From Nitrospirota bacterium (GTDB taxonomy: Bacteria; Nitrospirota; Thermodesulfovibrionia; UBA6902), in the NCBI GenBank assembly GCA_016222915.1, contig JACRQA010000104.1, forward strand, positions 1 through 33,766: a stretch of DNA of 33,766 bases. The letters are read 5' to 3'. Shown one piece after another: positions 3,884-33,766 of the stretch. The number at the start of each line of letters is the position of its first letter. The first letter of the stretch is position 1. Both the position numbers and the translations under genes were made by a program. The notes under the pieces were generated by a model that saw only the letters and a list, made by a program, of their open reading frames with translations, was not told the origin of the DNA and did not search any database.

Positions 3884-6800
3884 ATGAGAAGGGTCGTTAG
3901 TTATAGTATTGTAAGAATTGCGAGCTTGCAACTATTGATTTTAGCAGTTTTATTGGTACTTGCAGGTAAAGAGGCGATGGGCCTCGATTATCCACATTTT
4001 GGAAACAACAACATAGGCTGCGATTCATGCCATTTCATATATGGAACTCAGCCTTCTCTATTGCCGCCATGGACTGCACATGAACCACAAAATATAGATG
4101 ATACTCAGTACAATACCCTCTGCTGGAGTTGCCACAACGACATAGAAGCTCCTCATGTACGCACACATTCAAGCCTTCAGATTGACGATAGCTATGGCGA
4201 CTGGACAGTGGAATGCAGGGTATGCCATAACCCTCACTATCAGAAGCAGAAGGAATATGGAAGCGCAAGTTATCTTTACTCAGGCACATCAACAACAGTA
4301 ACGGCATCATCCATTACAAAGACCGGGGCAGGCTGGGAAACGGATGTTTATGAGGGCATGGTGGTAATCCCTAATATTTCCCAGAATAAATATGTTTATA
4401 AAATTACAGATAATACGGATGATACATTAACGGTAGAGGGGCCGATGGATTTAACAAAGGTCACCACAGGGAATACCTTTGCAATATTATACGGTAATCT
4501 TATCAACAAGACCATTGATCTGAGCAAGATAACGATAGACCCCTCAAAGAGCGGAAACAAGACAGTCAGATTTTTCAGGAAGGAGGGAGCTAATTCCTTT
4601 GCGGACGGCAATTCATCATACGATGGAGTGTGCGAGGTTTGCCATACACGGACAACGCATTTCCGAAATGGAACATATACAGGCGACTCCTCATATTCTG
4701 ACCCCTTGCATGAGAATGTCGGTTCGCCTGCGGGAACTTATTGTATAGAATGCCATTCGCATGTTAATGGATTTGCACATGGCGGAGCAGGAGGCACAGG
4801 CTGCGACCAGTGCCATGGGCATGATGCAGGGTATGAAGGCGTCACTGGCGGCAAGGGGACGTATGTTGCCCATTCGACACATACGGAGAATGATTCCGAC
4901 GATCTTAGGGGGCCGCACGTAGACTGCGGTACTTGCCACAATACGAGCAGTTTTCCGAATTTTGCAGACGGTGTAAGCTATGCTGATTACAAGTCTGGTG
5001 CGGAAATGACGACGGTATGTAATCCCTGTCATAGTCCCGATGGTACATATAATGGAGTAAGCGATTCTGCTGTCGGAGCAAAGAACAACTGGAGCATATC
5101 AAAGAGTGCGGACAGCCGCATTTATGAGGCAAACGGCAGTTTGAAATCCGGAAAGGGGAAGTGGTGTGCGACATGTCATGATGAGTCTCCGTCTCAGATA
5201 CAGAGCATTAATGCCCCGAATGTAATAGGTGATGAGGACGGCTTATTCACCTACGGTACAGGATGGGGATTCTACAAGACAGGACATGGCTTGCCATCAG
5301 GGCAGACGTATCCGGCAAGCGGGGGTATAAAAGCAGGGGCTGGGAAGGGATGCCTCGACTGTCATTTATCTACCGTAGCTCATATAGACGGAAATGCGAG
5401 GACATTTGATGATCATGAAAGTTCCTCTACCGATCCAAGCGAATATCGCCAGGGCTACCGTCTCAAGTTGATAAGCAGCGAGGAGCCGATGATTATACCC
5501 AAAACCGGCAGGGCTGAAGCGTCTAATTCCAGATTGTGTTTCAGCTGCCACACGGACACTCCCTTTACAACGTCTGATGGCACGAACACAAATTACAGAA
5601 ATGGCTCCACCAACCTGCATTACTATCATCTTAATTTAAATGATAGCTTGCGTTTCAAGGCTGACTGGGGCAGCGGCGAAAGCTATGATAGCCAGGCCTA
5701 CACCAGCCGGATCACCTGCATAACCTGTCACAACGTACACGGTTCTACCAGGCTGTCCATGGTGCGCGACGGCAAACTCGTCAACAGGGAACCCGGCGTC
5801 AAGATATGGTACTACAACTCCGACATTTCCACTAATTCAAATCCTCCGCAGCCGGAGAACCTGCCGCTTTCGGCCAGCACCGGATCATTATGGCTTCCAG
5901 GGTCAGCCGGTAATGTATGCTATCCATGTCACGGTGGGACCAGCACCGAGATAAAGAACAGGAACCCTTTTCAGGATACTGACCAGTCACCTATTCTTGA
6001 ATGGACCGGTGAGACAAACTATACAAGCGACGGAGTTGACCCTGCCAGCGGCGCATCAGGAAGTGCTTTCACTTTCAGGGTCAAATATACGGATACAAAC
6101 AACGACTCGCCAATCTATATGCAAGTGTGGGTAGATGAAGATGACAGCGGCACTTATGAGCCCGGAGAAAAATATACGATGACCGGAGCAAGTTCCTCTG
6201 ATATTATCTATACGGACGGCAAGATGTACTACAAGACGCTCACCATAGACAGTGCCGGGGACAATATTATCAACTATCGTTTCTATGCATCGGATGGGAC
6301 TAATGATGCCACGGGCGCCCCGATGAGCGGAGGGACTATTACAATTTCCAGCAGTGCTCCAGTACTGTCATGGACAGGAGAAGCAACCTATACAAGTGAT
6401 GGGGTCAATCCTGACACGGGAGGAAACGGCGATGGTTTTGAATTCAGGGTCAAATATGCTGATGCAGACAATAATGCTCCGGCATTGATTCAAATATGGT
6501 TGGATTCGAATGACAGCGGTACCTATGAAGAAGGCGAAAAATATGCAATGACTGCAGTGACCGGCGGTGATACCACATATTCAGACGGCAAATTATATAC
6601 AAAGAGCCTGACAATCGCTTATGCCGGAGACGGAAATCTCAATTACCGTTTCTATGCAAGCGACGGCTCTGCCGGCGCAACAGGCAGTCCCACGTCAAAC
6701 AACATGGTAACTGTTCTTGACGGGACGAATAATCCTCCTTCACTTGACTGGGTAGTTGCAACATGCCTGACCAATGGCGTTAAACCCGCAGAGGGGCCAA

Positions 6801-9800
6801 ACGGCGGTGATTTTGAGTTCTTGATAAATTATACGGATGAGGACAATCAGTGTCCGCCGACAGCTAATGACATCCAGGTATGGATAGATGTGAACGACAA
6901 CGGCACATACGAAGAAGGAGAAAAATACAATCTTGCCGAGACAGACGCCTTCGATACCACATGTTCGGATGGAAAGCTTTATAAGGTTACAAGGACACTT
7001 TCACTTGCAGGCGACAATGCGTTTAATTATCGCTTCTATGCTTCAGACGGAAGTGATACGGCCATAGGCGGGCCGATATCGAACAATACTGTCACAGTCG
7101 TCGATGCGCTCAAGGTAAGGCCCTCAGGCGGCTCGGGCTGGTACAGTACAATCCAGTCTGCGGTCGACGCAATCTCGGGAGCCCATACAGTACTTGTATA
7201 TGAAGGTGCTTATAACGAAAAAGTGACTTTTTCCGGTGGGGATGATAGCAACGTAACTGTCCGGTCGGTTTGCGGTCCGGACACCACTATCATAGATGCC
7301 ACGGGCAAAACATACGGCGTGTCAGTTGGAAGCAATTCCAATGGCTCAACAGTCGAAGGTTTTCAGATTATGAATGGTACGGCAGGCGTATATATCAGCA
7401 ATGCCGGCATTACGATCGATAACTGCAAGATCCATGATAATACACAGGGCATAAGTTTTATCGACGACACTCTCCCCAGAGAAACCCCCCTCATCGTCAG
7501 GGACTCCGAACTCTATGACAACCATGGCGGGAGCGGTGGCGCGATCTATATCAAAAACGGCTCTGAGCCCCACCACCAGATTATTAACACCGTTATCCAT
7601 GACAATACGGCGGTAAGTGGCGGTGGCGCTTATCTGGGCGGCATTGTTGATATCACCGGATCTACCATAAGGGACAACTCTGTAACGGCCAATGGCGGCG
7701 GTCTTTATATCAGCGGGGTCGTAAGTCTGGTTAGATCATCAATCATCGGCAATACTGCTGTGGGCAATGGCGGTGGCGCCTTCCTCCCTGACGCCGACAC
7801 CTTGACAATGGAAAACAGTATTGTAGCCGACAACACGGCCGCAGTGGGCGGTGGTGTATGGCTTGACGGTGCATTGACTGCGGTCAACTCAACCATCGCA
7901 AATAATGAAGCGACCGGAGCCAGCGGTGGCGGAGCGTTTTATACCAACACCTGGGCTGCCATTGATATCAAGAATTCCATTGTATGGAACAATATCGCCT
8001 CAAATGCCATGCAGAAACATGTAGCATCGGTGTCTTCAACTAGCACAATGACTGTAAACGATTCAATCATCAGCAATGATGGCGACGGAATTTATAATGA
8101 CTATCCATATGTTGTTGTAGCTTCCGGCGGTTCTGCAAGTTTCAGCGGCTACTTATCAGAGCAGGACCCCTTCTTCGTTGATGCATCAGGCGGAGATTAC
8201 CATATAAAGTCGAACTCACCGGCCATCGATGTTGCCAATGCGACATATGCGCCCACTGATGACATCGACGGCGACAGCAGGCCTCAGGGCAGCGCTGATG
8301 ACATTGGCGCGGATGAATATGACGGGACAATAAATAATGCCCCCGCGCTTTCCTGGACCGGGGAGGCAAATTATGAGTCAGATGGTGTTAATCCGAACAG
8401 CGCTGTCGGCGGCAGCAATTTCGAATTCAGGATTGACTACACAGATGCTGATAATACAGCTCCGACCTCGATCCAGGTTTGGGTAGACGAAGACGACAAC
8501 GGTTCTTATGCGGAAGATGAAAAATATAACATGACGGCAGTTAATGCTGATACGGTTTATTCCGACGGCAAACTTTATACAAAAACACTGACGCTCAGTT
8601 ATGCCGGTAACGGCGCTTTGGATTACCGGTTCTACGCATCAGACGGCACGGTCGCTGCATCGGGTGCGCCAGCTTCAGACAGCACGGTAACAGTAACAAA
8701 TAATGCACCGGCACTTGGCTGGACAGGCGAGACGAATTATACAACCGACGGGGTGAATCCCAACAGCGGAATAACCGGCAGCAACTTCGAGTTTAGAGTT
8801 GATTATACAGATGCTGATAACACAGCGCCTTCGTATATAGAAGTATGGGTAGATGAAGATGACAGCGCCGTTTATGATCTTGATGAGAAATACAGCATGA
8901 CCGAAACCGACGGCGGTGACACTAATTATGAGGACGGCAAGCGGTATTCAAAAACACTCACTCTTGCGACAGCCGGTGACAGCGTTCTGAATTATAAGTT
9001 TGCGGCCTCTGACGGTACGGATTCAGCAACAGGCACTCCGACAAATAATTCTTCACTGACTGTTTCCGGTGTTACGGTGACCTTTACAAGCGCATCACAG
9101 GTAACGGCAGGTGAAAGCAGCGCTGTGACGATCACTGCACAACTGAGTGGAGTAAGCGGTCAGGATGTCACGGTACCGTTTACAATAAATACGGGCAGTA
9201 CTGCAACAGGTGGAGGAACTGATTACAGTATAACCGTAAGCCCGATAACAATTACTGCCGGAAATACAACAGCAGATATAACCGTAACAATAGCTACGGA
9301 CAGCCTTGATGAGAATAACGAGTCCGTCATTGTTGATATGGGAACTCCTACCAATGCAGCACAGGGCGCAATAACAACCCATACGGTAACAATTACGGAT
9401 GACGACAACGAACCGACGGTGACCTTTACAAGTACGTCGCAATCCACGACTGATGAAACAGGAACTGCAACAATCACGGCACAATTGTCTGCTGCAAGCG
9501 GCAGGGATGTAACAGTACCTTTTACCATTAACGGCAGCAGTACGGCTACAGGCAGCGGAACGGACTACAACATAACCGCAAGCCCGATAACCATCACAGC
9601 AGGAAATACAACAGCAAATATAACGGTCACAATAGCGGCAGACAGCCTTGATGAAAATAATGAGACTGTCATTGTTGATATGGGAATGCCGACCAATGCG
9701 ACACAGGGAGCGACCACGACGCATACGGTTACAATTACGGATGACGATGCAACGCCGACAGTGACCTTTACAAGCGCATCACAGACAACGGCCAATGAAA

Positions 9801-12046
9801 GCGGCACACCGACAATTACGGCACAGCTTTCTGCAATAAGCGGACGCAATGTAACGGTCCCGTTTACAGTAAGCGTAAGCAGCACAGCAACGGGTGGAGG
9901 CACGGACTACAGCATAACTGCAAGCCCGATAACTATCACAGCCGGAAATACAACCTCCGACATAACCGTTACAATTACTGGTGACAGCCTTGACGAAAGC
10001 AATGAGACTGTCATTGTTGATATGGGATCACCGACCAATGCGACTCAGGGGGCAATCACAACGCATACCCTGACGATTACGGATGATGACCTGGCAGGAG
10101 GTACAATTTATACCGTATGTAAAGCGGGCCATGCAGACGCGCCGTGTAATTATCAGAGCATAAATGGAGGTATTGACAGCGCCTCTGTTTTGAATGGAGA
10201 TACTTTACTGGTCTCGGCTGATACATACAGTGAAAACATCAATTTCGACGGAAAGAATATCACAATCCAGGCGAAAATGGGTGCTGCGTCAACGACGATA
10301 CAGGGAAGCGGCGCCAATGCCGCAGTTGTTACCTTCAGCAACGCCGAAACCTCCGGCGCGGTTCTTGACGGTTTTACCATCAATAACCAGGCGGCAAATA
10401 CGGCAACAAGAGGAATCTATATATCCGGAGCTGCTCCTACCATAAAGAATTCCATTATTGAGGGCAATTCAGCCAATAACGGAACCAACGGTGGTGGCGG
10501 CGTGTATGTAGACAATTCAATCCCGACCTTTGACAATTGTACTATCAGGAGCAATACCGCGACAAATCGTGTGGGCGGCGGCATTTATATCACAGGGGCT
10601 GCAAGCGGTGCAACTATTACCAATTCCACAATCGGCGGCTCAGGCTATGCCAACTCCGCAAATAGCGGCGGCGGCATTTATTTCACAGGCTCTACAACAG
10701 GCACATTGTCCGTCAGCGGCAGCACCATAGCATATAATACGACTACCCAGGCCGGCACCGGTATTTATATTACGGGTATCACAAACACGACAATCTTTAC
10801 TAACACGTCCATCAACAATAACACCTCTTCCCAGACCGCCGGAGGCATATATAGCAATAATTCAGCGCTGTCATTTACTGATTGCAACATAAACAGCAAT
10901 GCGACAGGCAGCACAGCCAGTTACGACGGTGGCGGCATCTACCTGACCGGGGCCTCGGCTTCAGCAACGATCTCTGGCGGGACTATCAATGGGAATTCCG
11001 GCCGCTACGGTGGAGGTATTTACATAAACGGCTCGACAGCAGCCACTCCGCTTTTGATCAGCAACGCGACGATGTCTTCCAATACAGGCTATCTGGGCGG
11101 AGCGGCATATCTGACAGGGGTCACAAATACAGTTTCTATAACCGGCACAACCATCAGCGGCAATACCGGCATTGCGAGCGCCGGCGGTATTTACAATAAT
11201 GCAGTAGCTCTTGAAATAGCCAACAGTCACATTGACTCGAATACAGTGTCAAACAGCAGTCAGAGGGGCGGAGGCCTTTATCTGACCGGAGCAAAGACCA
11301 CGACAATTACCGATACGACTGTTAACAGCAACACGGCCACAGGGCTTGGCGGAGGAATTTATGCCGGAGGAGGCGCTACCCTTGCATTTACCGGAGGCTC
11401 CATTAACAGCAATGCAACTTCATCTACAGGGGATGGAGGAGGAGTAGCTGTCGATGGCGCAACAACATTGAGTGTTTCAAAGGCTGATATACGTGGAAAC
11501 AAAGCACGATACGGCGGCGGCATTTATTATACATCGACATCCGCCACTGCCGCATCGATCACTAATTGCACTATAACCGGAAACACGCACACCGGGACAT
11601 TGGACGGCGGTGGAATATACACTTCCGGAACAGCGATGAACATAATCAATAGTACACTGGCCGGAAACTATGCCTACCGTTACGGCGGAGGTATAAGGGT
11701 GCAGGCAGGAACTGTCAACATAAAAAACAGCATCATATACGGTAATACAGCCGGGACCTCCGGTCCTCAGATAAGCGGATCTCCTACCGTTTCATACTCC
11801 GATATTGAGGGAACTTTTGCCGGGACCGGCAACATTGATTCAGACCCGTTGTTTGAATCATTCGTAGCCGGTGATAAGGCAGGGAATAACGATCCAAAGA
11901 CAAGCGGCAACTTCCATATTCAGAGCGGCTCACCGTGCAAGGACACGGGAAACAACGACGATGCCCCTGCGGGCACTGATATCGACGGAGATACGCGCAT
12001 TCTCAACGGCACGGTTGATATGGGCCCGGATGAGTATGTGCCATAG
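3884..12046 (+). CDS. Giant (2720 aa) secreted multiheme c-type cytochrome fused to Ig-like, beta-helix and Calx-beta modules
   Basis: SD AAAGGAG upstream of ATG; N-terminal hydrophobic signal-like segment; 13 canonical CxxCH motifs (CDSCH, CWSCH, CRVCH, CEVCH, CIECH, CDQCH, CGTCH, CNPCH, CATCH, CLDCH, CFSCH, CITCH, CYPCH); downstream modules recognised by repeat motifs. Confidence 0.9.
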   Translation: MRRVVSYSIVRIASLQLLILAVLLVLAGKEAMGLDYPHFGNNNIGCDSCHFIYGTQPSLLPPWTAHEPQNIDDTQYNTLCWSCHNDIEAPHVRTHSSLQIDDSYGDWTVECRVCHNPHYQKQKEYGSASYLYSGTSTTVTASSITKTGAGWETDVYEGMVVIPNISQNKYVYKITDNTDDTLTVEGPMDLTKVTTGNTFAILYGNLINKTIDLSKITIDPSKSGNKTVRFFRKEGANSFADGNSSYDGVCEVCHTRTTHFRNGTYTGDSSYSDPLHENVGSPAGTYCIECHSHVNGFAHGGAGGTGCDQCHGHDAGYEGVTGGKGTYVAHSTHTENDSDDLRGPHVDCGTCHNTSSFPNFADGVSYADYKSGAEMTTVCNPCHSPDGTYNGVSDSAVGAKNNWSISKSADSRIYEANGSLKSGKGKWCATCHDESPSQIQSINAPNVIGDEDGLFTYGTGWGFYKTGHGLPSGQTYPASGGIKAGAGKGCLDCHLSTVAHIDGNARTFDDHESSSTDPSEYRQGYRLKLISSEEPMIIPKTGRAEASNSRLCFSCHTDTPFTTSDGTNTNYRNGSTNLHYYHLNLNDSLRFKADWGSGESYDSQAYTSRITCITCHNVHGSTRLSMVRDGKLVNREPGVKIWYYNSDISTNSNPPQPENLPLSASTGSLWLPGSAGNVCYPCHGGTSTEIKNRNPFQDTDQSPILEWTGETNYTSDGVDPASGASGSAFTFRVKYTDTNNDSPIYMQVWVDEDDSGTYEPGEKYTMTGASSSDIIYTDGKMYYKTLTIDSAGDNIINYRFYASDGTNDATGAPMSGGTITISSSAPVLSWTGEATYTSDGVNPDTGGNGDGFEFRVKYADADNNAPALIQIWLDSNDSGTYEEGEKYAMTAVTGGDTTYSDGKLYTKSLTIAYAGDGNLNYRFYASDGSAGATGSPTSNNMVTVLDGTNNPPSLDWVVATCLTNGVKPAEGPNGGDFEFLINYTDEDNQCPPTANDIQVWIDVNDNGTYEEGEKYNLAETDAFDTTCSDGKLYKVTRTLSLAGDNAFNYRFYASDGSDTAIGGPISNNTVTVVDALKVRPSGGSGWYSTIQSAVDAISGAHTVLVYEGAYNEKVTFSGGDDSNVTVRSVCGPDTTIIDATGKTYGVSVGSNSNGSTVEGFQIMNGTAGVYISNAGITIDNCKIHDNTQGISFIDDTLPRETPLIVRDSELYDNHGGSGGAIYIKNGSEPHHQIINTVIHDNTAVSGGGAYLGGIVDITGSTIRDNSVTANGGGLYISGVVSLVRSSIIGNTAVGNGGGAFLPDADTLTMENSIVADNTAAVGGGVWLDGALTAVNSTIANNEATGASGGGAFYTNTWAAIDIKNSIVWNNIASNAMQKHVASVSSTSTMTVNDSIISNDGDGIYNDYPYVVVASGGSASFSGYLSEQDPFFVDASGGDYHIKSNSPAIDVANATYAPTDDIDGDSRPQGSADDIGADEYDGTINNAPALSWTGEANYESDGVNPNSAVGGSNFEFRIDYTDADNTAPTSIQVWVDEDDNGSYAEDEKYNMTAVNADTVYSDGKLYTKTLTLSYAGNGALDYRFYASDGTVAASGAPASDSTVTVTNNAPALGWTGETNYTTDGVNPNSGITGSNFEFRVDYTDADNTAPSYIEVWVDEDDSAVYDLDEKYSMTETDGGDTNYEDGKRYSKTLTLATAGDSVLNYKFAASDGTDSATGTPTNNSSLTVSGVTVTFTSASQVTAGESSAVTITAQLSGVSGQDVTVPFTINTGSTATGGGTDYSITVSPITITAGNTTADITVTIATDSLDENNESVIVDMGTPTNAAQGAITTHTVTITDDDNEPTVTFTSTSQSTTDETGTATITAQLSAASGRDVTVPFTINGSSTATGSGTDYNITASPITITAGNTTANITVTIAADSLDENNETVIVDMGMPTNATQGATTTHTVTITDDDATPTVTFTSASQTTANESGTPTITAQLSAISGRNVTVPFTVSVSSTATGGGTDYSITASPITITAGNTTSDITVTITGDSLDESNETVIVDMGSPTNATQGAITTHTLTITDDDLAGGTIYTVCKAGHADAPCNYQSINGGIDSASVLNGDTLLVSADTYSENINFDGKNITIQAKMGAASTTIQGSGANAAVVTFSNAETSGAVLDGFTINNQAANTATRGIYISGAAPTIKNSIIEGNSANNGTNGGGGVYVDNSIPTFDNCTIRSNTATNRVGGGIYITGAASGATITNSTIGGSGYANSANSGGGIYFTGSTTGTLSVSGSTIAYNTTTQAGTGIYITGITNTTIFTNTSINNNTSSQTAGGIYSNNSALSFTDCNINSNATGSTASYDGGGIYLTGASASATISGGTINGNSGRYGGGIYINGSTAATPLLISNATMSSNTGYLGGAAYLTGVTNTVSITGTTISGNTGIASAGGIYNNAVALEIANSHIDSNTVSNSSQRGGGLYLTGAKTTTITDTTVNSNTATGLGGGIYAGGGATLAFTGGSINSNATSSTGDGGGVAVDGATTLSVSKADIRGNKARYGGGIYYTSTSATAASITNCTITGNTHTGTLDGGGIYTSGTAMNIINSTLAGNYAYRYGGGIRVQAGTVNIKNSIIYGNTAGTSGPQISGSPTVSYSDIEGTFAGTGNIDSDPLFESFVAGDKAGNNDPKTSGNFHIQSGSPCKDTGNNDDAPAGTDIDGDTRILNGTVDMGPDEYVP
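4019..5932 (+). other. 13-heme CxxCH region of the 3884 protein
   Basis: First CDSCH codon at 4019, last CYPCH ends 5932. Confidence 0.9.
5986..7104 (+). repeat. Three Ig/cadherin-like repeats, each with an acidic EF-hand-like loop
   Basis: [SD]W...(T)..GV.P..G..G..FEFR[VI].YTD.[DN]N..P repeats with DEDDSGTYEPGE, DSNDSGTYEEGE, DVNDNGTYEEGE. Confidence 0.65.
7130..8322 (+). other. Internal beta-helix domain ending in a choice-of-anchor-Q-like motif
   Basis: WYSTIQSAVDAISGAHTVLVYEGAYNEKVTF...; GGGAYLGG, GGGLYISG, GGGAFLP, GGGVWLDG rungs; ends DDIDGDSRPQGSADDIGADEYD. Confidence 0.75.
8335..9066 (+). repeat. Two further Ig-like repeats
   Basis: LSWTGEANYESDGVNPNSA... and LGWTGETNYTTDGVNPNSG..., with DEDDNGSYAEDE and DEDDSAVYDLDE. 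Confidence 0.65.
9077..10102 (+). repeat. Three tandem Calx-beta-like repeats (342-bp period)
   Basis: VTFTS[AT]SQ starts at 9077, 9419 and 9761 (exactly 342 nt = 114 aa apart); each has [ND]IT[AV]SPITITAGNTT..ITVTI..DSLDE.NE[ST]VIVDMG..TNA.QGA.TTHT[VL]TITDDD. Confidence 0.9.
10105..12043 (+). other. C-terminal beta-helix domain, choice-of-anchor-Q-like end, no visible anchor
   Basis: Many GGGIY/GGGLY/GGGVA rungs; ends GTDIDGDTRILNGTVDMGPDEYVP* with no hydrophobic tail or PEP motif. Confidence 0.75.
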
Positions 12047-12158: not shown

Positions 12159-13100
12159 TCAGGAATGGGTGGAATGCGGTTTCAATTTTAACCGATTAAT
12201 AAAAAGTCCGCTCCCCAATATCAACACGCCTGAAATAAACAGGATATAACTTTCCGGCTCTGGCACAACGGCAGGATAAGGGGCCGCGAGACTGGTAGTA
12301 TTAATTCCATCCAGAATAAACTTCTGCGTCTCTGCTCCGCTGATTATATCAACCGTCATTAACCTGTTCCCTCCACGGATTGTATACAACTCCCCTGTAA
12401 CAGGGTAAAACTCCAACCCCACACCCCCGGCATTAACTGCAGGAGTCAGATTAATCGACGAGAGCCTTTGCCCTGTATTTTTATCAAGCTTGTATAACGT
12501 GTCATATGTACAACCCCAACTGAAATTACATCCTGAAAGGGCATATAGTTCATCAGTGCTAAAGTCTATTGCAAGACCGGTATGATAAATATTCGGCCCG
12601 GCATCGCCTATAAGACTGGACGTACCTGTTGCGGGATTTATCAAATAAAAATTATCACTTGGATATCCGTCGACAAGACCGTAGAGGTCCCCGCTCCTGT
12701 CAAACGCGAGGCCATTGGTCCATTGAGTGTCAGGATTCAGATTGGCAGCGCCGATAGGATTAATATAACCGGTATCATAGTTTATTGAATAGAGCTGGTT
12801 GGCTGCATTGTTCCAGCCGAAAAGTTCATTATCAGGGCTGAAGGCAAGCGCGTTTATTCTGAAATCGGGAGGGACCGGGGCAGGTGAGCCATTTTGGAAG
12901 TATAATGTAGTGACTACATCGGTTGTCCCATTTATTGGGTCAATGCTCCATAAAGCCGAATTCCCCTCAAAAGCAGTAATAGAATAAAACTTGTCATATT
13001 CCAGGGCGGCATTTGAAACGCCGGCAAACATAAATGACGTCATCATAAATATGACAGACAAAATTAATATTGCCCTAGTCGTGGTTTCATGTCTTTTCAT
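12159..13100 (-). CDS. PEP-CTERM sorting-domain protein, probable beta-propeller-like repeats
   Basis: Signal-like N-terminus; repeats such as LYSINYDTGYINPIG/LYGLVDGYPSDNFYLINPATG; C-terminal VPEPESYILFISGVLILGSGLFINRLK (12162-12266); strong SD (AAGGAG) before ATG on minus strand. Confidence 0.85.
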   Translation of the reverse strand: MKRHETTTRAILILSVIFMMTSFMFAGVSNAALEYDKFYSITAFEGNSALWSIDPINGTTDVVTTLYFQNGSPAPVPPDFRINALAFSPDNELFGWNNAANQLYSINYDTGYINPIGAANLNPDTQWTNGLAFDRSGDLYGLVDGYPSDNFYLINPATGTSSLIGDAGPNIYHTGLAIDFSTDELYALSGCNFSWGCTYDTLYKLDKNTGQRLSSINLTPAVNAGGVGLEFYPVTGELYTIRGGNRLMTVDIISGAETQKFILDGINTTSLAAPYPAVVPEPESYILFISGVLILGSGLFINRLKLKPHSTHS

Positions 13101-23618: not shown

Positions 23619-26600
23619 TTGAGACTGAGGGGTGGGACATTTTCAGCAGGACATCATATTATTAAGAGCAACATATTGCTCTTAACGCTGATGCTGGTCC
23701 TGTCAGCAGTCTCAGTATTTGCAGCGACTGATTACCCTCATTCGGGCATCAACAACATCGGCTGCGACTCCTGCCATTTTGTGTATGGGTCACAGCCGTC
23801 CTTATTGCCTCCGTGGACCGTGCATGCCCCTCAGGACATAGATGACACTCAATACAACACCCTCTGCTGGAGCTGCCATAACGATATCGATGCCCCATAT
23901 GTGCGAACTCATTCGAGCCTTCAGACGGACAACGGCTATGGAGACTGGACCGTAGAATGCAAGGTCTGTCATAACCCTCATTATCAGAGGCAGTTCAGGG
24001 TCTATGGAAGCCAAAGCTACCTTTATTCAGGACAGTCGACGGGAGTTACATCAACAACCATCACCCGTGCAGGGGCGGGCTGGGAGGAAAACCAGTGGGC
24101 AGGTGAGATAGTTGTCGGCAATATTTCCAAACCCGATTACAATTACAAGATCATAAGCAATACTGCAGATACATTGACGGTGCAGGGGCCTGTAAATTTG
24201 ACGAAGGTCATCACTGGGAACACCTTTGCAATCATATACGGGAAACTTGTAAAGGAATCGATTGACCGCAGTAAGATCACCCCGCCAAAGACTAACGTCA
24301 AGACGGCAAGATTTTTCAGAGATACAGGGAGCAAGTCATTCGCAGATGGTGACGCGACATATGACGGCATATGTGAAGTATGCCACACAGAGACCAACTA
24401 TCATGACGAAATAGGCTCCGGTGCAGCGCATAATGAGGGAGTGCGATGCACTCAGTGCCACAACCATGTCAACGGGTTCGGGCATGGTGGCGGAGGCGGC
24501 ACAGGCTGCGATTCCTGCCACGGCCATGATGCAGGCTGGCAAGGCAATAATAATCTTGGGAAGGGGACGTTCAAAAGCCATTCGACCCACACTGAAAACG
24601 ACAGTGATGATTTAAAAGGGCCTTATATTGTCTGCGGTGATTGTCACGACACGGGCAGCTTCCCTAATTTTAAATCAGGCGCGGATATAAACGGCGATGG
24701 TAAATTTAATCTTTTGGAGACTGATGTCTGCAACCCTTGCCACAGCCCTGAGGGTACATATGACGGAGCTAACAACAATGTGATCGGCGCAAAGGCCAAC
24801 TGGCAGGAGGGCATTTATAATGCTGATGGCGCTACATTGCAGCCGGGCAAGGAAAAGTGGTGCGCGGGTTGTCACGATGAAGGGTCTTCAATTATTCAAA
24901 GCGTCAGCGCTCCAAACGTTATCGGCGATGAAGATGGTGTATACACATATGGTATAGGCTGGGGTTTTTACAAGACCGGTCATGGTCTGCAGGACGGCCA
25001 GGTCTATCCTTCCAAGGACGGTGACTTTCCACCCTTGATGGTCAACGGCTCGACACGCCCAATCGGGTGCAGCAGTTGTCATGATTTTTCCAGCAGACAC
25101 ATTGACGGAGTGGACAGGACGTACGGCACGCAATCGATTACCGCGGCAGGTTACCGGCAGGGCTACCGGTTAAAGATGGTGAACGGCAAAGAGCCCATGC
25201 AAATACCAAGGCCGGGAAGCAGTATTAACTTCGACGACTACCTGCTCTGCTTCCAGTGTCACGAATCAGAGCCGTTTCTTGATCCCATAGATGAGCGATC
25301 AAACATGGCGCAGCGCAGCACCGGCAATGCTAATTTGAAGGTCGGTCATTATTATCACTTGAGTCAAATATGGTGGCAGGGCTGGAAATCCGACTGGAGG
25401 ACGACATCAAACAGCGGAGTGAGCTGTCCGCAGTGCCACAACGTTCACGGCAGCAAGAACATGGCGATGTTGTCCGATGGATCGCTTACCGGCACACCGC
25501 CGGGCTTTGAATTTTACTATTACAACAGGGCGCTTTCCAGTAAGGACATCAACGGCTACAATCCGCCGACGCCTCGGAATATGCCTTTAAGGCTTGCCGA
25601 CGGCTTCCAATGGCTGCCGCTAAGCACCAACAGGGTCGGTTGCAGCGCGACATGCCATGGTCAAATTCTATATAGAAATTTCGAATGGACCCCTTACAAT
25701 GTTCCAAACAGCCCTCCTGTCCTTTCGTGGACGGGCGAGACCAATTACACGTCCGATAGTGTTTATCCCAAAAGCGCTGTATCAGGAAGTAATTTCGAGT
25801 TCAGGATCAATTACGCGGACCACTTGACTAATATGGACGGAGGAGGTTTTTATAATTCCCCGAGCTATATTAGGGTGATGCTCGACAATAATAATGACGG
25901 CGTTTTCGAGACAGCTTACTCCATGGACTACGTGAGCGCAGCGCCCTCAGGCGGGAGGATATATAAGAAGATCATATCCATCAGAAATACTTACAGCAAT
26001 ACCATACGCTACAAAATTTCAGCGGCAGACGGGCCGGACACCGTGTCTACCGGCTCTTCTCCCAGCGGGCTGCAGGCTGTCGGCGACCCTGCGAATGAAA
26101 ACACAATCTCGATAATCAATCGCGCGCCTGTGCTTTCATGGACTAACGAGACGAATTATGAAAATGACGGTGTTAATCCAAACGCCGGGGCCGTCGGACA
26201 GGCTTTCACCTTCAGAGTCAAATATACGGACCCAGACAATCAGCCGCCTGATGCAAACGGAGTGCGGGTCATTGTTAATGGTGTTGAATATGTCCTGGAT
26301 GAGAAGGCCGGCGGTTATTACGATACCGGGAGAATCTACTACAAGGTCATAGCTCTTACCACCGCAGGAGAGCTCAGCTACAGGTTTATCGCTAATGACT
26401 ACTTTGGCCTTCCGGCCACTGGAGAGCCTGTGTCTGATCATACAGTGACGGTGCAGGCGTCTTCCACGCCCCCAACCCTTGAATGGGTTATTGAGCCGGG
26501 CCGCATAGAAGGGATCAAACCAGCAAGCGGCGTATCGGGCGATGAATTCGAATTCAGGATCAAGTACACGGACCTGAATAACCAGTGGCCTCCGCTGGCG

Positions 26601-28214
26601 GGCTATATGAGGATATGGATTGATAAGAACGATAACGATAATTTTGATAATGGCGAGACCTACGAGATGCTGGAAGAAGTCGCCGGATCAGGATGCGTCA
26701 GCGGTAAGTTGTACAAGATTGCCGTGAGGCTTGTGTATGCAGGAGACGGTATTTTGAAATACCGCTTCCTGGCGTCAAACGGCGTGGACGTAGCATCAGG
26801 AGAGCCGGCAACGGACAAATATCTTACACTGGCCAATTCAAAGATATGGACTACTGACGTTGATTTCAACGCAGGTATCAAGACCGGAGTAAGCGTCAAC
26901 GGGGTCTCGGAAGCTGCTTATGTTACCCTCCAGACGGGGGCTGAAAACTGGAGCGCCGTCAGCGTGACCGGACAGTCGCCGGCAACGTCATGGGGACCTA
27001 TGGTTTATGACAGCCACTGCAAAAAATTCATCTACTACGACGGAAGCTCCTATGAATTTAATCCGGCGCTCAAGCAATGGACAAAATTCACGGCAGCGGG
27101 CAGCCCGCCGACAAATGCGTCCGGATGGGGCTGGGCGGGTTCGTCTTTAATGACCTATGACCCGGACAGGGACAGAGTGGTCATGCTTGCATACAACGGA
27201 CAGACCTGGGAATACCATGAGGGCGTCTGGACGAACAGAAACGCCCAAAACATCAATTACCCGGGTTACAACAGATTTAAGTATGCAATGGTCTATGACC
27301 CGACACTTCGAAAGGTCATACTCATCGGTGGCACAATCGGTCCCGGAGTAAGCTATGCCTATTCCGGCCCCATTGTAGTATATGAAGAGACCTGGGCCTA
27401 TGATCCTGTACTGAATAGCTGGGAACCGGTGTTTTTTAACAATACCAATCCACCGGACGGGAAGGGCTTCTCATCTTCCAAGGTGAACCAGACAATAGCG
27501 GTTTTTGACTCATCGGCCAATAAAGTAATCATACCTTACGGAGGGGGCTATTCTTATAACTCTTCCGGCACATTCAGCTTTGGTCCTACCGACTGGATAT
27601 GGAGCAATCTGAATATTTCAACTCCGAACCGTATGTATCAAATTCCGCTCGCATACGATTCCACAAAGGGCAGGGCGGTCCTTTACGGCGGGGCCTTCAA
27701 TGATACACCGCAATATACAACATGGGTCTTTAACTCGACCGATTTCACATGGCAGCAATTGTCCCCGGCAAATTCGCCTTCAGTCGCCGCCGGTTCCATG
27801 TCGTATGATAGTAATAATATGAAGATGATTCTCAACGGTGGATCAGGAGGGACCTGGGCATTTGGAAATACTTATTCTCTATCAAACGAGGGAACAATTT
27901 CCGGCCTGAAAATAGACGCTGGTGAAGGGGCGACTGTTCAATGGAATACCATAGCATGGCATGCCAATGTCCCAATGGGGACCAGCATTAAGTTCCAGGT
28001 AAGGACGGGAAATAGCGAAGGCGAACTTGGCAACGCAATTTTTACCGGACCTGATGGCACAGATCAGACTTATTACACAATATCAGGCAGCCCGCTTGCA
28101 AGTGTTACTAAGACCCACTTCATTGAAGTCAAAGCGGTCCTGACTACAACCGATGTATCCGGAAGTCCAATTCTATATTCGTTGACTGTAAGCCATGATG
28201 TGGCTCTGCAATAA
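23619..28214 (+). CDS. Multiheme cytochrome (1531 aa) fused to Ig-like repeats and a Kelch/galactose-oxidase-like region
   Basis: Likely TTG start 30 nt after the previous stop (probable operon); signal-like N-terminus; 12 canonical CxxCH plus one CX3CH. Confidence 0.88.
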   Translation: MRLRGGTFSAGHHIIKSNILLLTLMLVLSAVSVFAATDYPHSGINNIGCDSCHFVYGSQPSLLPPWTVHAPQDIDDTQYNTLCWSCHNDIDAPYVRTHSSLQTDNGYGDWTVECKVCHNPHYQRQFRVYGSQSYLYSGQSTGVTSTTITRAGAGWEENQWAGEIVVGNISKPDYNYKIISNTADTLTVQGPVNLTKVITGNTFAIIYGKLVKESIDRSKITPPKTNVKTARFFRDTGSKSFADGDATYDGICEVCHTETNYHDEIGSGAAHNEGVRCTQCHNHVNGFGHGGGGGTGCDSCHGHDAGWQGNNNLGKGTFKSHSTHTENDSDDLKGPYIVCGDCHDTGSFPNFKSGADINGDGKFNLLETDVCNPCHSPEGTYDGANNNVIGAKANWQEGIYNADGATLQPGKEKWCAGCHDEGSSIIQSVSAPNVIGDEDGVYTYGIGWGFYKTGHGLQDGQVYPSKDGDFPPLMVNGSTRPIGCSSCHDFSSRHIDGVDRTYGTQSITAAGYRQGYRLKMVNGKEPMQIPRPGSSINFDDYLLCFQCHESEPFLDPIDERSNMAQRSTGNANLKVGHYYHLSQIWWQGWKSDWRTTSNSGVSCPQCHNVHGSKNMAMLSDGSLTGTPPGFEFYYYNRALSSKDINGYNPPTPRNMPLRLADGFQWLPLSTNRVGCSATCHGQILYRNFEWTPYNVPNSPPVLSWTGETNYTSDSVYPKSAVSGSNFEFRINYADHLTNMDGGGFYNSPSYIRVMLDNNNDGVFETAYSMDYVSAAPSGGRIYKKIISIRNTYSNTIRYKISAADGPDTVSTGSSPSGLQAVGDPANENTISIINRAPVLSWTNETNYENDGVNPNAGAVGQAFTFRVKYTDPDNQPPDANGVRVIVNGVEYVLDEKAGGYYDTGRIYYKVIALTTAGELSYRFIANDYFGLPATGEPVSDHTVTVQASSTPPTLEWVIEPGRIEGIKPASGVSGDEFEFRIKYTDLNNQWPPLAGYMRIWIDKNDNDNFDNGETYEMLEEVAGSGCVSGKLYKIAVRLVYAGDGILKYRFLASNGVDVASGEPATDKYLTLANSKIWTTDVDFNAGIKTGVSVNGVSEAAYVTLQTGAENWSAVSVTGQSPATSWGPMVYDSHCKKFIYYDGSSYEFNPALKQWTKFTAAGSPPTNASGWGWAGSSLMTYDPDRDRVVMLAYNGQTWEYHEGVWTNRNAQNINYPGYNRFKYAMVYDPTLRKVILIGGTIGPGVSYAYSGPIVVYEETWAYDPVLNSWEPVFFNNTNPPDGKGFSSSKVNQTIAVFDSSANKVIIPYGGGYSYNSSGTFSFGPTDWIWSNLNISTPNRMYQIPLAYDSTKGRAVLYGGAFNDTPQYTTWVFNSTDFTWQQLSPANSPSVAAGSMSYDSNNMKMILNGGSGGTWAFGNTYSLSNEGTISGLKIDAGEGATVQWNTIAWHANVPMGTSIKFQVRTGNSEGELGNAIFTGPDGTDQTYYTISGSPLASVTKTHFIEVKAVLTTTDVSGSPILYSLTVSHDVALQ
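23763..25658 (+). other. Multiheme region of the 23619 protein (12 CxxCH + CX3CH)
   Basis: CDSCH at 23763 through CSATCH ending 25658. Confidence 0.88.
25710..26830 (+). repeat. Three Ig-like repeats related to those in the 3884 protein
   Basis: VLSWTGETNYTSDSVYPKSA, VLSWTNETNYENDGVNPNAG, TLEWVIEPGRIEGIKPASG; loops DNNNDGVFE and DKNDNDNFDNGE. Confidence 0.65.
26990..27880 (+). other. Kelch/galactose-oxidase-like beta-propeller region
   Basis: Repeated pattern PMVYDSHCKKFIYYDG..., LMTYDPDRDRVVMLAYNGQTWEY, AMVYDPTLRKVILIGG, LAYDSTKGRAVLYGGA, SMSYDSNNMKMILNGG. Confidence 0.75.
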
Positions 28215-28533: not shown

Positions 28534-31500
28534 ATGAGGGGATCAATACTTCTTGCTGTACTTGCCGTACTGTTCGTCATTGCTGCGCCCGCCCACACCA
28601 TTGACTATCCCCATTTCAGCATAAACAGCATCGGTTGCGACTCGTGCCATTTTGTATCAGGGACACAACCTTCATTATTGCCTCCCTGGACAGCGCATAA
28701 TCCCCAGGATATAGATGACACCCAATACAACACACTTTGCTGGAGCTGTCATAATGATATCGATGCACCCTATATGAGGACGCATTCAAGTCTTCAGACA
28801 GACAACAGCTATGGAGACTGGACTGTGGAGTGCAGGGTCTGCCATGATCCTCATTACCAGGACCAGTTCAGAAAATACGGGAGCCCTAGCTATCTGTATT
28901 CAGGCGCATCAACGGGGATAACGGCATCGACGATAACGAAGACAGGCGCGGGGTGGACGGCTAATGCATATACCGGGCTGGTGATTGTTCCGAATGTGTT
29001 ACAGAAGAATTATAACTACAACATACTCAGCAACACATCTGATACATTGACAGTGCAGGGACCGATCAATTTAACAAAGGTGACCGTTGGGAACACGTTT
29101 GCTATTGTCTACGGGAACCTGATCAACGACACTATTGATCTCAGCAAGATAATAATAACGCCTGCCAAGAGCGGGAGCAAGACGACAAGGTTTTTCAATT
29201 CAACAGGTGGTAAATCATTTGCTGATGGTGATGCAACGTATGACGGGGTATGCGAAGTCTGTCATACACAGACAACCCATTTCAGGAACAACGGCGGAGG
29301 CTTCGATCCGTTGCATACAAACATGGGAGCAGTCGTTGGGACGAGGTGCACTAATTGCCACATGCACGTGAACGGGTTCATGGGCATGGGCGGAGGGGTG
29401 CACAAGACGCACGTGACGGATGAAAAGGGGCCGAAGCTCGCATGTGTGGATTGCCATGGGACAAACACTCCACCTATGCTTGCGGATGGTCAGAGACTTG
29501 CGAACACTACTGTATGCAATAGCTGTCATTCGGAAAGCGGAGCAGCAATTGCCAAGACCTACTGGCAGACCAATCCCGGCAATTGGACAACTACAGGGGG
29601 AGAAGCGGAATACTGCGGGAGTTGTCACGACGGGACACCGGGAAACAGCAAGAACGACGGCACAGGAGATACAGCAGCAAATATAGTCGGAGACAATACG
29701 ACATACGGATTCTTTGTCACAGGTCATGGAAAGACAACGGGCACTTATACAAGGCTTTCCTGGCAGGCCACAATGACATACGGGAATCCTGCGGCAAACA
29801 AATCCTGCAGCGTGTGTCATGATCTGAGCACCCCGCATTACGGCAGCGTCAATAAGAGACTTAAGCCGGGATATGAGAATGACAGCAGCAACAGCAATTG
29901 CAGGCAGTGTCATGATTCCGGAATTGCGGCGACATCCGAACCTGAGTGGTATACGACATATTCCGCATATCAAGAATCCGCTCACAAGAACAAGAAGTGC
30001 TCTGAATGTCATGACGTGCATGGGGCGTCAGGAAATTATCCCGGGATGACGAGGGCAAATCAGGAGAGCTTGTGTTATCAATGTCATACCCAGGGAGGTG
30101 TACAGAACAATGCGATGTCAGGAGCAGGTTTAGCGGACGACATACAGCAGGCTTTCAGCCTTTCAAACAAGCATGACCTTGGAACATCATTCTCGCTGAA
30201 TTTTGAAAGCTACACCCTTGAATGCGTATCATGTCACAACGTACATGTCATCACCGGGAAATATTGGGATGCGGCAAGCGGAAAGAGTCCCGTAACGAGA
30301 TTTACAAACAATACCGCAGTATGGGGAGATGCCGCCGGCGAAAAGATGGACGATTATGTCGGCTCAGGGATTTACCAGACTCCATATGCTGACGTATTTC
30401 CCGGCTATATACTGCCCGATTACCCGACCTTCTGTCTCGACTGTCACAGCAGTTTCGGGGGTGGCGGTCAAGGTGGCATAAGCTGGGGTTCCGACAAGCA
30501 CGGCAAAGGCGCAGCTAACAACCCCGGCGGGAATCAGGGACCGTATCCTGACTATTGGGGGATATGGGCACAAGGCCAAATATACGATGCCAACCCGCCA
30601 GCTTTCAAGGTGCCTGTAGGTCGCGGCTTTGTCTCTTTCACGTATCAGCCGTGGGACCAGGAGCGCCGCATCGCGGGTGGCAACTTTGTGCTGTCGTGCA
30701 CTGATTGCCATGAGGCGCATGGCGCAAGTAACGGATCAATGACCAGGACCATTATTCGTCCGGCAACCAGCGAACCAGGGGCCGAAACCGGCCCATCATC
30801 ATCAGCGCCGACTGCCTGCCAGATTTGTCACGGTGTTAAGACACAGGAGCACAACGGCGGTCTTTTCGGCTGCGGTTCAGCTTCATGTCACCAAACGGCC
30901 AACATCCATCGCCTGGCTGTCTCGGGGGGCGGCGGCGGGACGACCTTATTCAACAGGGAACATGTGGCGGACATCAGATTTGAGAATTCTCTGGACGACT
31001 CCGGCACATGGAAGATGCACGGGCGCTGGGTGGACAACGGCAATCTTCAGTCTACGAATTCCAGCCTGAGTCCCAACGCCGATTACCTGGCCAAATTCGT
31101 TCCCGGTAAATCCGGCCAGGCCTTCTCCTTTGACGGCAACGACGTTGTAGAGCTGGGCTCACGCGGGGCTTTCTCCGAAGGCTATGCCCAGTCGTCGGCC
31201 AAAACCGGCATGGCCAAGGCTTTCGAGCTGACCGACACGGGCACAATTGCAGCTTGGATATATCCGACTGATCTCACCGGCACGAAGACCATCGCTTCAA
31301 ACGCAAAGGAAGGCGACAGGAACTATGTGTTGATGATTAAAGACACTGTCCCCGGCGAGACCGGCCCGAGGCTTGTCTTCCATGCTGACACAATGGACAT
31401 GTATGAACCGGACCACGGGGCGTACAGCAGTGTAACGATTCCATTAAATGAATGGACGCACGTGGCTGCCGTCTATAACCGCTGGGATGCCGACCACAAG

Positions 31501-33766
31501 ATCATAAGGCTTTTTGTAAACGGGAACGATGTGACCATGAATACCGGCGCCGTGGAATACTCCCAGCCTCTTACACAATGCAGTATTGAGCCTACTTCAT
31601 ACTGGTCGACCTGGAACATGCAGCCGTTTCTTCTCGGCGGTCATCCCGTCGATTTTGATATGTTCCAGGGAGTAACTTGCGATATGACCGATTACTTTGA
31701 GGGGAAAATGGATGAGTTCCACGTCTACAATATAGCGATGAATTCTTACCAGATACGGCAGAGCATTGGTCCTGTTATTGTAAGTGCAAAGGGCAAGATC
31801 GGCAGCGACCAACTGACTATTGCCTTTTCACGCGGGGTATATACGAATACAGGCGCAAGCGGCTCTCTTGTTCCTTCGGATTTCATCCTCACGGATACGG
31901 ATGATAGCAGGACGGTTTCATCGGTAAACCATACCGCCGGCGCATCAACTGCGACGTTGACCCTAAGCTCTCCGATTGATTCATCTGAAGACCTCTTTGC
32001 AGATAAATTGAAGGCTGCAAGCAATACTGTCTTTGATTCAAGCGACAACCCAGCCATTTCTCTGGACGTGGTCATAACAGCCAGATCAAATATCAAAGGC
32101 GCAATTGCAAAAGATTCATCGGGCGTCGCAGGCATACAGACCGGAGACAAGGTAATCATAAAATTTGATATGGCTACACAGGGCACGCCTGTTACAAGTG
32201 GAAATATTAATAGCGCCCTTGGTCTCTCCAACAGTCATTCCTGGCTCAGCGGAAGCGGCGCGATAACCTCCGCCATATGGAGCACGACCACAAATTCAAA
32301 CGACACATTGACGATTACATTAAGCGCAAACAGCGGAGCTCCGTCTGTTTCTCCTGGCGATATAATTACGCTCAACGGCACGTTAAAGGACGCATCAGGC
32401 GTTTCCATTGATGACAATCATGTCATTTCAGGGACATTCGGTCCGCTCCCTGACGGCGCAGTAGGATACTGGAACATGGTCGAGAACTACGGCGACGGCG
32501 CGTATGATTCAACCGATTATGAAAACCATGGCACGCTCGTCAATCTCCCTACATGGACAACGGGAGTATATGATTCCGGGCTTTACTTTGACGGCGAGGA
32601 TGATTACGTGGAAGTCCCGGACTCCGCATCACTTGATCTAAGCAGAGAGGGGACATTGGAGGTTTGGGCCAAGAAAGATGAGAACAGGGCATACCAGGTT
32701 TATATTGCCAAATATGCAACCTCCGGCAGCGCGCTTGCCAATTTCGGCTACGTGCTTGCTGATGTGGAAGGCAAGATAGCGGTCAAATGGGGCGAGGAGG
32801 ATGACGTCCTGACAAGCGACTGCGTTACAGTGCCGACCGGGGCATGGAACCATATTCTCGCCACTTACGACGGCACGCAGATGAAGATATTCCTCAACGG
32901 GCAGCCCATAAAAACCGGCTCCGTTATGAAGAAAGCCGTCCCCAATGCATACCCTCTGAGGATTGGCGCAAAGGGCGCGGGCGACTCTTATGACAGCCTC
33001 TTTCAAGGCACGATTGACGAGGCAGTGGTCTACAATAGGGCGCTTACCAACGACGAGGTAAGAGAGCGTTACGGCGAGACTGTCAGCCCGAAGAGCGCCA
33101 TTGTTTATGACATGAACGGAGCTGATGGGATACAATCCGGCGATAAGGTCGTGGTCAAGTTCGACGGACCTACAAACGGAGCGACTGTGAATGCTTCAAA
33201 TATTAATGCGGTCTTGGCCCTTAACAATGGTCATACATGGGGCACGATAAGCAGCGCGGCATGGAGCACAACAGTATTCACGAATGACAAGCTGACAATT
33301 ACTTTAAGCACAAGTGGCATCGCGCCGACAATTGCGCCTGCGGATACAATAACCCCTAACGGCTCTGTGCTGAAAGACCTGTGGGGCAGTTCCATAACAA
33401 CCACTATTGGCGTAGGCGGCAAATTCGGCCCGCTCCCAAGCGGCGCGGTGGCCTATTATGATTTCAACGAAGGAAGCGGTACGACTGTCAATGATGCTAC
33501 TTTAAATGAAAACCACGGCGTTGTCAGGGGTGATGGATCATGGATTTCGGGCAGGACAGGAGGCGGCAATGCGCTGAATTTCAACGGCACGGACACACAT
33601 GTTTTTGTGCAGGACTGCGGGACTTCGCTTGATCTTACCACCCAGGGCACACTTGAGTTCTGGATGAGGAAGGACAGCAGCCCGACGAACACCTACCCCA
33701 TCATTGTCAGCAAGGGACAGCCGACAAGGACAGACGGCACGGGCAACTATGCAGTCGACTCACTGA
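28534..33766 (+). CDS. Multiheme cytochrome fused to LamG-like domains; 3' truncated by window (absent from supplied ORF track)
   Basis: ATG at 28534 (MRGSILLAVLAVLFVIAAPAHTIDYPHFSINSIGCDSCH...); read open by eye to ...GNYAVDSL at the window end. 16 canonical CxxCH plus one CX4CH, several in doublecyt style (CHDVHGA, CHNVH, CHEAHGAS). Confidence 0.9.
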   Translation, partial: MRGSILLAVLAVLFVIAAPAHTIDYPHFSINSIGCDSCHFVSGTQPSLLPPWTAHNPQDIDDTQYNTLCWSCHNDIDAPYMRTHSSLQTDNSYGDWTVECRVCHDPHYQDQFRKYGSPSYLYSGASTGITASTITKTGAGWTANAYTGLVIVPNVLQKNYNYNILSNTSDTLTVQGPINLTKVTVGNTFAIVYGNLINDTIDLSKIIITPAKSGSKTTRFFNSTGGKSFADGDATYDGVCEVCHTQTTHFRNNGGGFDPLHTNMGAVVGTRCTNCHMHVNGFMGMGGGVHKTHVTDEKGPKLACVDCHGTNTPPMLADGQRLANTTVCNSCHSESGAAIAKTYWQTNPGNWTTTGGEAEYCGSCHDGTPGNSKNDGTGDTAANIVGDNTTYGFFVTGHGKTTGTYTRLSWQATMTYGNPAANKSCSVCHDLSTPHYGSVNKRLKPGYENDSSNSNCRQCHDSGIAATSEPEWYTTYSAYQESAHKNKKCSECHDVHGASGNYPGMTRANQESLCYQCHTQGGVQNNAMSGAGLADDIQQAFSLSNKHDLGTSFSLNFESYTLECVSCHNVHVITGKYWDAASGKSPVTRFTNNTAVWGDAAGEKMDDYVGSGIYQTPYADVFPGYILPDYPTFCLDCHSSFGGGGQGGISWGSDKHGKGAANNPGGNQGPYPDYWGIWAQGQIYDANPPAFKVPVGRGFVSFTYQPWDQERRIAGGNFVLSCTDCHEAHGASNGSMTRTIIRPATSEPGAETGPSSSAPTACQICHGVKTQEHNGGLFGCGSASCHQTANIHRLAVSGGGGGTTLFNREHVADIRFENSLDDSGTWKMHGRWVDNGNLQSTNSSLSPNADYLAKFVPGKSGQAFSFDGNDVVELGSRGAFSEGYAQSSAKTGMAKAFELTDTGTIAAWIYPTDLTGTKTIASNAKEGDRNYVLMIKDTVPGETGPRLVFHADTMDMYEPDHGAYSSVTIPLNEWTHVAAVYNRWDADHKIIRLFVNGNDVTMNTGAVEYSQPLTQCSIEPTSYWSTWNMQPFLLGGHPVDFDMFQGVTCDMTDYFEGKMDEFHVYNIAMNSYQIRQSIGPVIVSAKGKIGSDQLTIAFSRGVYTNTGASGSLVPSDFILTDTDDSRTVSSVNHTAGASTATLTLSSPIDSSEDLFADKLKAASNTVFDSSDNPAISLDVVITARSNIKGAIAKDSSGVAGIQTGDKVIIKFDMATQGTPVTSGNINSALGLSNSHSWLSGSGAITSAIWSTTTNSNDTLTITLSANSGAPSVSPGDIITLNGTLKDASGVSIDDNHVISGTFGPLPDGAVGYWNMVENYGDGAYDSTDYENHGTLVNLPTWTTGVYDSGLYFDGEDDYVEVPDSASLDLSREGTLEVWAKKDENRAYQVYIAKYATSGSALANFGYVLADVEGKIAVKWGEEDDVLTSDCVTVPTGAWNHILATYDGTQMKIFLNGQPIKTGSVMKKAVPNAYPLRIGAKGAGDSYDSLFQGTIDEAVVYNRALTNDEVRERYGETVSPKSAIVYDMNGADGIQSGDKVVVKFDGPTNGATVNASNINAVLALNNGHTWGTISSAAWSTTVFTNDKLTITLSTSGIAPTIAPADTITPNGSVLKDLWGSSITTTIGVGGKFGPLPSGAVAYYDFNEGSGTTVNDATLNENHGVVRGDGSWISGRTGGGNALNFNGTDTHVFVQDCGTSLDLTTQGTLEFWMRKDSSPTNTYPIIVSKGQPTRTDGTGNYAVDSL
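28636..30891 (+). other. Multiheme region of the 28534 protein (16 CxxCH + CX4CH)
   Basis: CDSCH at 28636 through CGSASCH ending 30891. Confidence 0.88.
30970..31770 (+). other. LamG-like domain 1 of the 28534 protein
   Basis: IRFENSLDDSGTW...AFSFDGNDVVELG...GTIAAWIYPTD...NEWTHVAAVYNRWDADHKIIRLFVNGNDV...GKMDEFHVYNIAM. Confidence 0.8.
32085..33080 (+). other. Recurrent 'IQ(S/T)GD' module copy 2 followed by LamG-like domain 2
   Basis: GIQTGDKVIIKFDMATQGTPVTSGNINSALGLSNSHSW...; then GAVGYWNMVENYGD...LYFDGEDDYVEVPDSASLDLSREGTLEVWAK...GTIDEAVVYNRAL. Confidence 0.8.
33097..33766 (+). other. Recurrent 'IQSGD' module copy 3 followed by LamG-like domain 3 (truncated)
   Basis: GIQSGDKVVVKFDGPTNGATVNASNINAVLALNNGHTW...; then GAVAYYDFNEGSGTTVND...ALNFNGTDTHVFVQDCGTSLDLTTQGTLEFWMRK. 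Confidence 0.8.

Follow-up and report, generated by a model that had tools for sequence, protein, structure and literature searches.

The window analysed here, the whole 33,766-nucleotide (nt) contig C64 in the metagenome-assembled genome (MAG) of an uncultured, deep-subsurface bacterium of the Thermodesulfovibrionia (Nitrospirota), carries four plus-strand open reading frames (ORFs), W1 to W4, each with a signal-peptide-like start (judged by eye) and, directly after it, a shared heme-containing block that we call the core. Judged from their sequences, W1 to W4 would be secreted giant c-type cytochromes that combine electron conduction with surface attachment, the core being homogenised between the genes of a genome and the tails forming stable lineages, a reading to which we assign a probability of about 0.55. 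The new point that tells us most is the concerted evolution of the core, which the preliminary description of this DNA missed. Below, C-labels denote contigs of the source MAG, L-labels loci from contig searches, and a and b the paired genes of one genome.

Four multiheme proteins with a common core and different tails

Over about 265 amino acids (aa), the blocks of W2 to W4 are 67–72% identical to that of W1. Three more core genes lie outside the window in the same genome, on C13, C37 and C82/C117 (the ends of C82 and C117 overlap, and each contig encodes part of what looks like a single core gene); aligned together, the seven core blocks have a mean column identity of 70%. Homology among the four genes W1 to W4 extends to about residue 620 at 43–55% identity, and the common part is therefore longer than the motif quoted in the preliminary description. 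The core places hemes 1–3 in its first 100 residues, followed by a beta-rich insert and hemes 4–5, with a sixth close behind in most proteins; a second heme block comes after it.

Canonical CXXCH motifs number 13, 12, 12 and 16 in W1 to W4, and one CX5CH (W2), one CX3CH (W3) and one CX4CH (W4) raise the totals to 13, 13, 13 and 17, in agreement with the earlier count of 13–17 heme motifs in four genes with a common N-terminal block. After residue shuffling, the proteins held on average 0.01–0.03 CXXCH each and never more than 2. The variants resemble heme sites that carry inserted residues: relatives of W4 also have its CX4CH, and the W3 and W2 variants are positioned, judging by sequence context, where W1 has CXXCH. 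The heme regions hold 32, 32, 30 and 37 histidines, enough for bis-histidine ligation at the canonical motifs, which would take 26, 24, 24 and 32. With Pfam matches to Cytochrome_C7 and Paired_CXXCH, and with several CXXCH motifs in each putatively exported protein, W1 to W4 have the marks of multiheme c-type cytochromes.

The non-heme domains found by Pfam differ from gene to gene, as had been described. Domain searches including Pfam identified a beta-helix (1e-26), Calx-beta (1e-24) and choice-of-anchor Q in the W1 tail, Golvesin_C (1.5e-11) and LamG (3e-17) in W2, Kelch (1e-7 to 1e-9) in W3 and LamG (4e-42) in W4. For the Ig label given to W1 and W3 in the preliminary description, Pfam returns only a weak GEVED match and structure prediction a confident, mostly beta domain. 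The golvesin domain of W2 had been placed after the N-terminal heme block and in fact sits inside the heme region (Table 1). A 123-aa repeat that we name SWTGE occurs in 45 near-full-length copies across 12 family proteins. Its model, built from 42 copies, is a mostly beta domain with a mean predicted local distance difference test score (pLDDT) of 97.4; the best solved match is to residues 821–903, a C-terminal module of a multimodular xanthanase, and Ig domains are among the weaker matches. The Gly-rich repeat of W2 is absent from every other family member searched. Repeated domains of extracellular beta type (LamG, Calx-beta, beta-helix and Ig-like), as expected of large adhesins, are thus predicted in W1 to W4.

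Spread of the family and stability of the tails

The source MAG comprises 3.0 Mb in 227 contigs and is 94% complete; its relatives are MAGs of Nitrospirae/Thermodesulfovibrionia. The core was found at 29 loci among the genome contigs searched, including Desulfobulbaceae. At E 1e-3 it matched 33 of 61 genomes (source and relatives), some of the matches spanning just its second half; at E 1e-30, with at most six candidates scored per genome, it was present in 43 of 396 sampled Nitrospirota genomes. The viral contigs searched held no relatives.

The 70 members tabulated were picked from strong and long matches and are not a random sample; 42 have, beyond the last heme, a tail of at least 200 aa, with a median of 13.5 hemes, and the other 28 (median 29 hemes, range 6–40) have less than 200 aa of non-heme sequence there. 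The core is thus not specific to adhesin-like fusions. Nearly all long-tailed members scanned with Pfam contain surface-type domains; LamG is the most frequent, beta-helix and Ig/Fn3 types come next, and some tails have Calx-beta or beta-propellers. The proposed union of a conserved multiheme N-terminus with diverse extracellular-type beta domains is real and is seen in many MAGs from two phyla. That the fusions are assembly chimeras is ruled out, since they recur in MAGs assembled independently, where full-length or near-full-length homologs occur. At L026, L027 and L028, one MAG encodes heme-only paralogs with 29–38 hemes, of which L027 and L028 share further near-identical stretches beyond the core.

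Freely interchangeable C-termini, as first envisaged, are for the most part not what we found. W1 is 59% identical over 2267 aa to a protein of SURF_66, another MAG of its genus, C37 and L021 are 86% and L044a and L045a 72% identical over their full length, and W4 matches L017 at 51% over 1238 aa. Identity well beyond the core is kept in the W4–L017, C37–L021–L032, L044a–L045a and L044b–L045b comparisons, so that architectures are mostly stable between species. Within single genomes, alike cores stand beside unlike tails (W2/W3, L035a/b, L044a/b and L045a/b). Mapped on the core tree, tail class changes 19 times versus 29 with shuffled labels, which means that tails are clustered, yet not fixed relative to the core. 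The tree of the region downstream of the core in 20 fusion proteins splits deeply into two ancient lineages. One is of LamG type (W4, L014, L016b, L017, L030a, L041, L044a, L045a, L058, L061), the other of Ig/beta-helix type (W1, W2, W3, L020, L030b, L035a, L035b, L042, L044b, L045b).

Different histories of the core and the downstream region

In the same-genome pairs W2/W3, L035a/b, L044a/b and L045a/b, the core is about 75–100% identical in most segments, and identity then drops. Core segments of L044a/b and L045a/b are 78–91% identical within the genome, falling to 22–28% past core position 400. Compared between genomes, L044a and L045a share 79–83% in the core and 84–89% after it; the core is no more conserved than the downstream region, and constraint on the core alone is therefore no explanation. 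The trees disagree in the same way. The core tree unites L045a with L045b (100/99), and approximately unbiased (AU) tests on it reject the groupings L044a+L045a (p 0.007) and L044b+L045b (p 0.0006). In the tree of the downstream region, L044a is instead united with L045a (100/100), and L045a+L045b is rejected (p 3e-41). Within the core of L035, a tandem pair of Desulfobulbaceae, an unbroken 479 nt are identical and are flanked on either side by diverged sites; all 41 fourfold sites of one 80-codon segment are identical. At fourfold sites, compared at conserved residues only and in alignments that are unsure downstream, identity is higher in the core than after it for W2/W3 (56% vs 31%, p 0.004) and L030 (62% vs 35%, p 0.007). 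Recombination, most simply gene conversion, thus appears to homogenise the core between paralogs of a genome. Since the core and the next heme block differ in history, with conflicting trees, the 'chassis' of the preliminary description is more than a module passed down by descent.

Proposed function and alternative readings

A working model would begin with heme attachment in the periplasm and export of the protein. At the cell surface the common core would then dock to one and the same electron donor or acceptor, electrons would pass outward along the heme chain, and the tail would fix the protein to matrix, polysaccharide, a mineral or another cell. The tails would be inherited outlets, each specialised and all fed through the same standard connector, with second heme block and tail forming old, fairly stable lineages while recombination or gene conversion keeps the core alike. 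If the core connects these proteins to a single surface partner, its homogenisation would be explained; attachment by the tails is plausible from domain type. Candidates for the surface electron route are two multiheme clusters of the source genome that encode MtrC-like domains, on C108 (L066) and C204 (L065), together with four secretins. Both clusters adjoin 670-aa proteins that lack Pfam matches and are possibly porins. A search with an MtrB/PioB model gave no match, but the control also matched nowhere, so the negative does not establish absence. In a more specific and rather speculative version, which we regard as unlikely, the 5–6-heme core is a standard connector that is gene-converted since all giant cytochromes plug into one surface electron hub, perhaps with the NHL/FG-GAP propeller protein whose gene neighbours many of theirs, with second heme blocks and tails specialising by surface or partner, so that the whole would form a plug-and-tool set of electron-conducting adhesins.

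Several observations weigh against conduction combined with attachment and against homogenisation of the core. The core profile found no cytochrome, and nothing credible, among PDB sequences up to E = 1. The AlphaFold model of the core has a mean pLDDT of 59 and is confident only at about residues 100–170, the beta insert; Foldseek with this model gave no match below E 0.03. Covalent anchors were not identified at the C-termini, the nearly tail-less members make up a sizeable part of the table, all named core-family records are MAGs or metagenome-derived, and LamG, Ig and beta-helix domains are also found in non-adhesive enzymes and stalks. As to homogenisation, the fourfold contrast is not significant for L045a/b (p 0.26), and the limits of those comparisons given above apply throughout. 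Within the window, the W2/W3 pair gives a weaker signal, with long branches and an AU p of 0.028 downstream, and taken alone would be modest evidence. Neither the core nor the downstream tree makes L044b and L045b sisters, and their orthology therefore rests on gene order. The data as a whole come from MAG assemblies and include some long branches.

Among the alternatives, it is possible, if rather doubtful, that the non-heme parts are stalks, spacers or assembly domains and that the proteins act as extracellular wires or matrix-embedded charge stores with no specific adhesion. Ig-like, beta-helix and Gly-rich repeats can act as spacers, and the members with 6–40 hemes and almost no tail show that the core exists without adhesin-like parts; however, tail architecture is kept between species, which suggests selected roles, and LamG, Kelch and golvesin domains are to our knowledge atypical as spacers. 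Likeness of cores within genomes could also come purely from strong purifying selection, the tree conflict being a rate artefact and recombination unneeded. The first 100 aa are indeed highly conserved in all pairs compared (79–95%), and downstream alignments hold long branches. We nevertheless consider this explanation clearly improbable: when L044a and L045a are compared between genomes, the core falls slightly below the downstream region in conservation, the core and downstream trees each reject groupings of the other, and the identity in L035 runs through 479 nt, fourfold sites included.

Two further readings concern location and chemistry. Signal-peptide-like N-termini imply export to the periplasm only, and the presence of multiheme genes is not in itself proof that electrons are exchanged outside the cell (PMC9769857), so the proteins might be periplasmic electron-storage or transfer proteins without surface exposure. 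A size of 1500–2800 aa and domains established as surface-type make this very unlikely. Redox enzymes that process polysaccharide or another substrate, with tails binding it outside the cell and hemes serving a catalytic site, are less probable still. Carbohydrate-active enzymes do include LamG and beta-helix folds, and the SWTGE repeat best matches a xanthanase module, but W1 to W4 contain no clear catalytic glycoside hydrolase, lyase or oxidase family, such names arising only from folds (LamG, Kelch) or sub-cut-off matches.

If conduction and attachment are indeed combined in these proteins, a widespread Nitrospirota/Desulfobulbaceae family would unite electron transport with surface attachment, and its short conserved core could be used as a marker for further members and their tails. 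The homogenised core would point to a single shared docking partner, a testable prediction on the electrical contact of uncultured subsurface bacteria with minerals or cells.

Features of the window and neighbouring genes

Table 1. Coordinates of W1 to W4, their domains and other genes (window positions unless a locus is given)
Feature	Position	Strand	Description
W1	3884..12046	+	2720-aa predicted secreted multiheme cytochrome, 13 CXXCH at residues 46–683; after the hemes SWTGE Ig-like repeats, beta-helix, two more Ig-like repeats, Calx-beta repeats, second beta-helix, choice-of-anchor Q end
W1 N-terminal core	3983..4783	+	hemes 1–5
W1 SWTGE Ig-like repeats	5990..7108	+	three of about 123 aa each; two more at 8342–9067
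W1 Calx-beta repeats	9165..10090	+	tandem 342-bp DNA unit, 2.7 copies
W2	16806..23588	+	2260-aa predicted secreted multiheme cytochrome, 12 CXXCH and CX5CH
W2 N-terminal core	16938..17699	+	
W2 Golvesin_C	18654..18974	+	residues 617–723, between heme motifs 582 and 795
W2 Gly-rich repeat	19755..22526	+	four, each up to about 240 aa, residues 984–1907
W2 LamG (Laminin_G_3)	23097..23573	+	C-terminal
W3	23619..28214	+	1531-aa predicted secreted multiheme cytochrome, TTG start, 12 CXXCH and CX3CH; after the hemes three SWTGE Ig-like repeats, then Kelch propeller
W3 N-terminal core	23730..24488	+	81–83% identical to W2 core
W3 Kelch beta-propeller stretch	27273..27881	+	residues 1219–1421
W4	28534..33766	+	at least 1744 aa, cut by contig end; 16 CXXCH and CX4CH; LamG domains
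W4 N-terminal core	28600..29382	+	
W4 best LamG stretch	32590..33060	+	residues 1353–1509
Beta-helix ORF pair	3-950, 1031-3478		apparently one gene, frameshift near 945
Secreted proteins, PEP-CTERM-like by eye	12159-13100, 13117-13995	-	end in VPEP, hydrophobic stretch, basic residues
KDPG-aldolase-like and HMGL-like genes	14912-16535		between W1 and W2
NHL propeller gene	L009:4297-6804	-	
NHL propeller gene	L011:663-3488	-	
NHL propeller genes	L014, L018, L021, L025, L030, L032, L033, L034, L036, L038, L040		

The beta-helix ORFs upstream of W1 (Table 1) resume in another frame and finish in a choice-of-anchor Q-like end, their 5' end being lost at the contig edge; the pair could be the tail of another core-family member. 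The KDPG-aldolase and HMGL-like homologs of SURF_66 are adjacent too (L024:14448-16096) and stand beside a different core gene, which lies between them and the W1 homolog on the same contig. Rfam and tRNA scans returned nothing.

At 13 of the loci searched, in both Nitrospirota and Desulfobulbaceae, the core gene has an NHL propeller gene nearby, at several of them immediately upstream. The NHL protein contains BACON and FG-GAP domains where scanned and has 700–950 aa in several cases. The contig of the window carries no such NHL/FG-GAP propeller gene.

Comparison with known systems

The closest parallels by description are the giant multiheme cytochromes MHC types A, B and C of anaerobic methanotrophic archaea (ANME), which are likewise fused to surface-type domains: MHC-A and MHC-B carry S-layer domains, and MHC-C has a pectin-lyase-like domain with a suggested role in partner-cell recognition (Chadwick et al., 2022, PMC9012536). 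The W1 to W4 family is bacterial, whereas these proteins are archaeal; unlike MHC-A and MHC-B, W1 to W4 have no S-layer family among their Pfam matches, and the pectin-lyase-like region of MHC-C is N-terminal, whereas the beta-helix regions of W1 follow the hemes. OetF of the sulfate-reducing ANME partners, a cytochrome c from bacteria, has fibronectin domains, and either interaction with the conductive matrix or a part in partner recognition has been proposed for it (Murali et al., 2023, PMC10553843); again by description, it resembles W1 to W4 in joining a cytochrome to surface-type domains.

Outer-membrane cytochromes of the MtrC/OmcA type are surface multiheme c-type proteins that pass electrons outward, as proposed for W1 to W4; the MtrC/F domain (PF22113; II/IV) is absent from the Pfam and NCBIfam matches of W1 to W4 and present in genes of C108 and C204. 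Cytochrome nanowires with solved structures, such as OmcS, are secreted multiheme proteins as W1 to W4 are predicted to be, though the core profile matches none of the solved cytochromes, as noted above. The tails recall fibrillar and other large modular adhesins, in which Ig-like, Calx-beta, LamG and beta-helix domains likewise follow one another in long arrays, and we know of no such adhesin that carries a multiheme chain. Fusions of cytochromes with surface domains have already been published. What appears to be new here is this core family, of which we found no description among the open papers searched, and the apparent homogenisation of its core within genomes.
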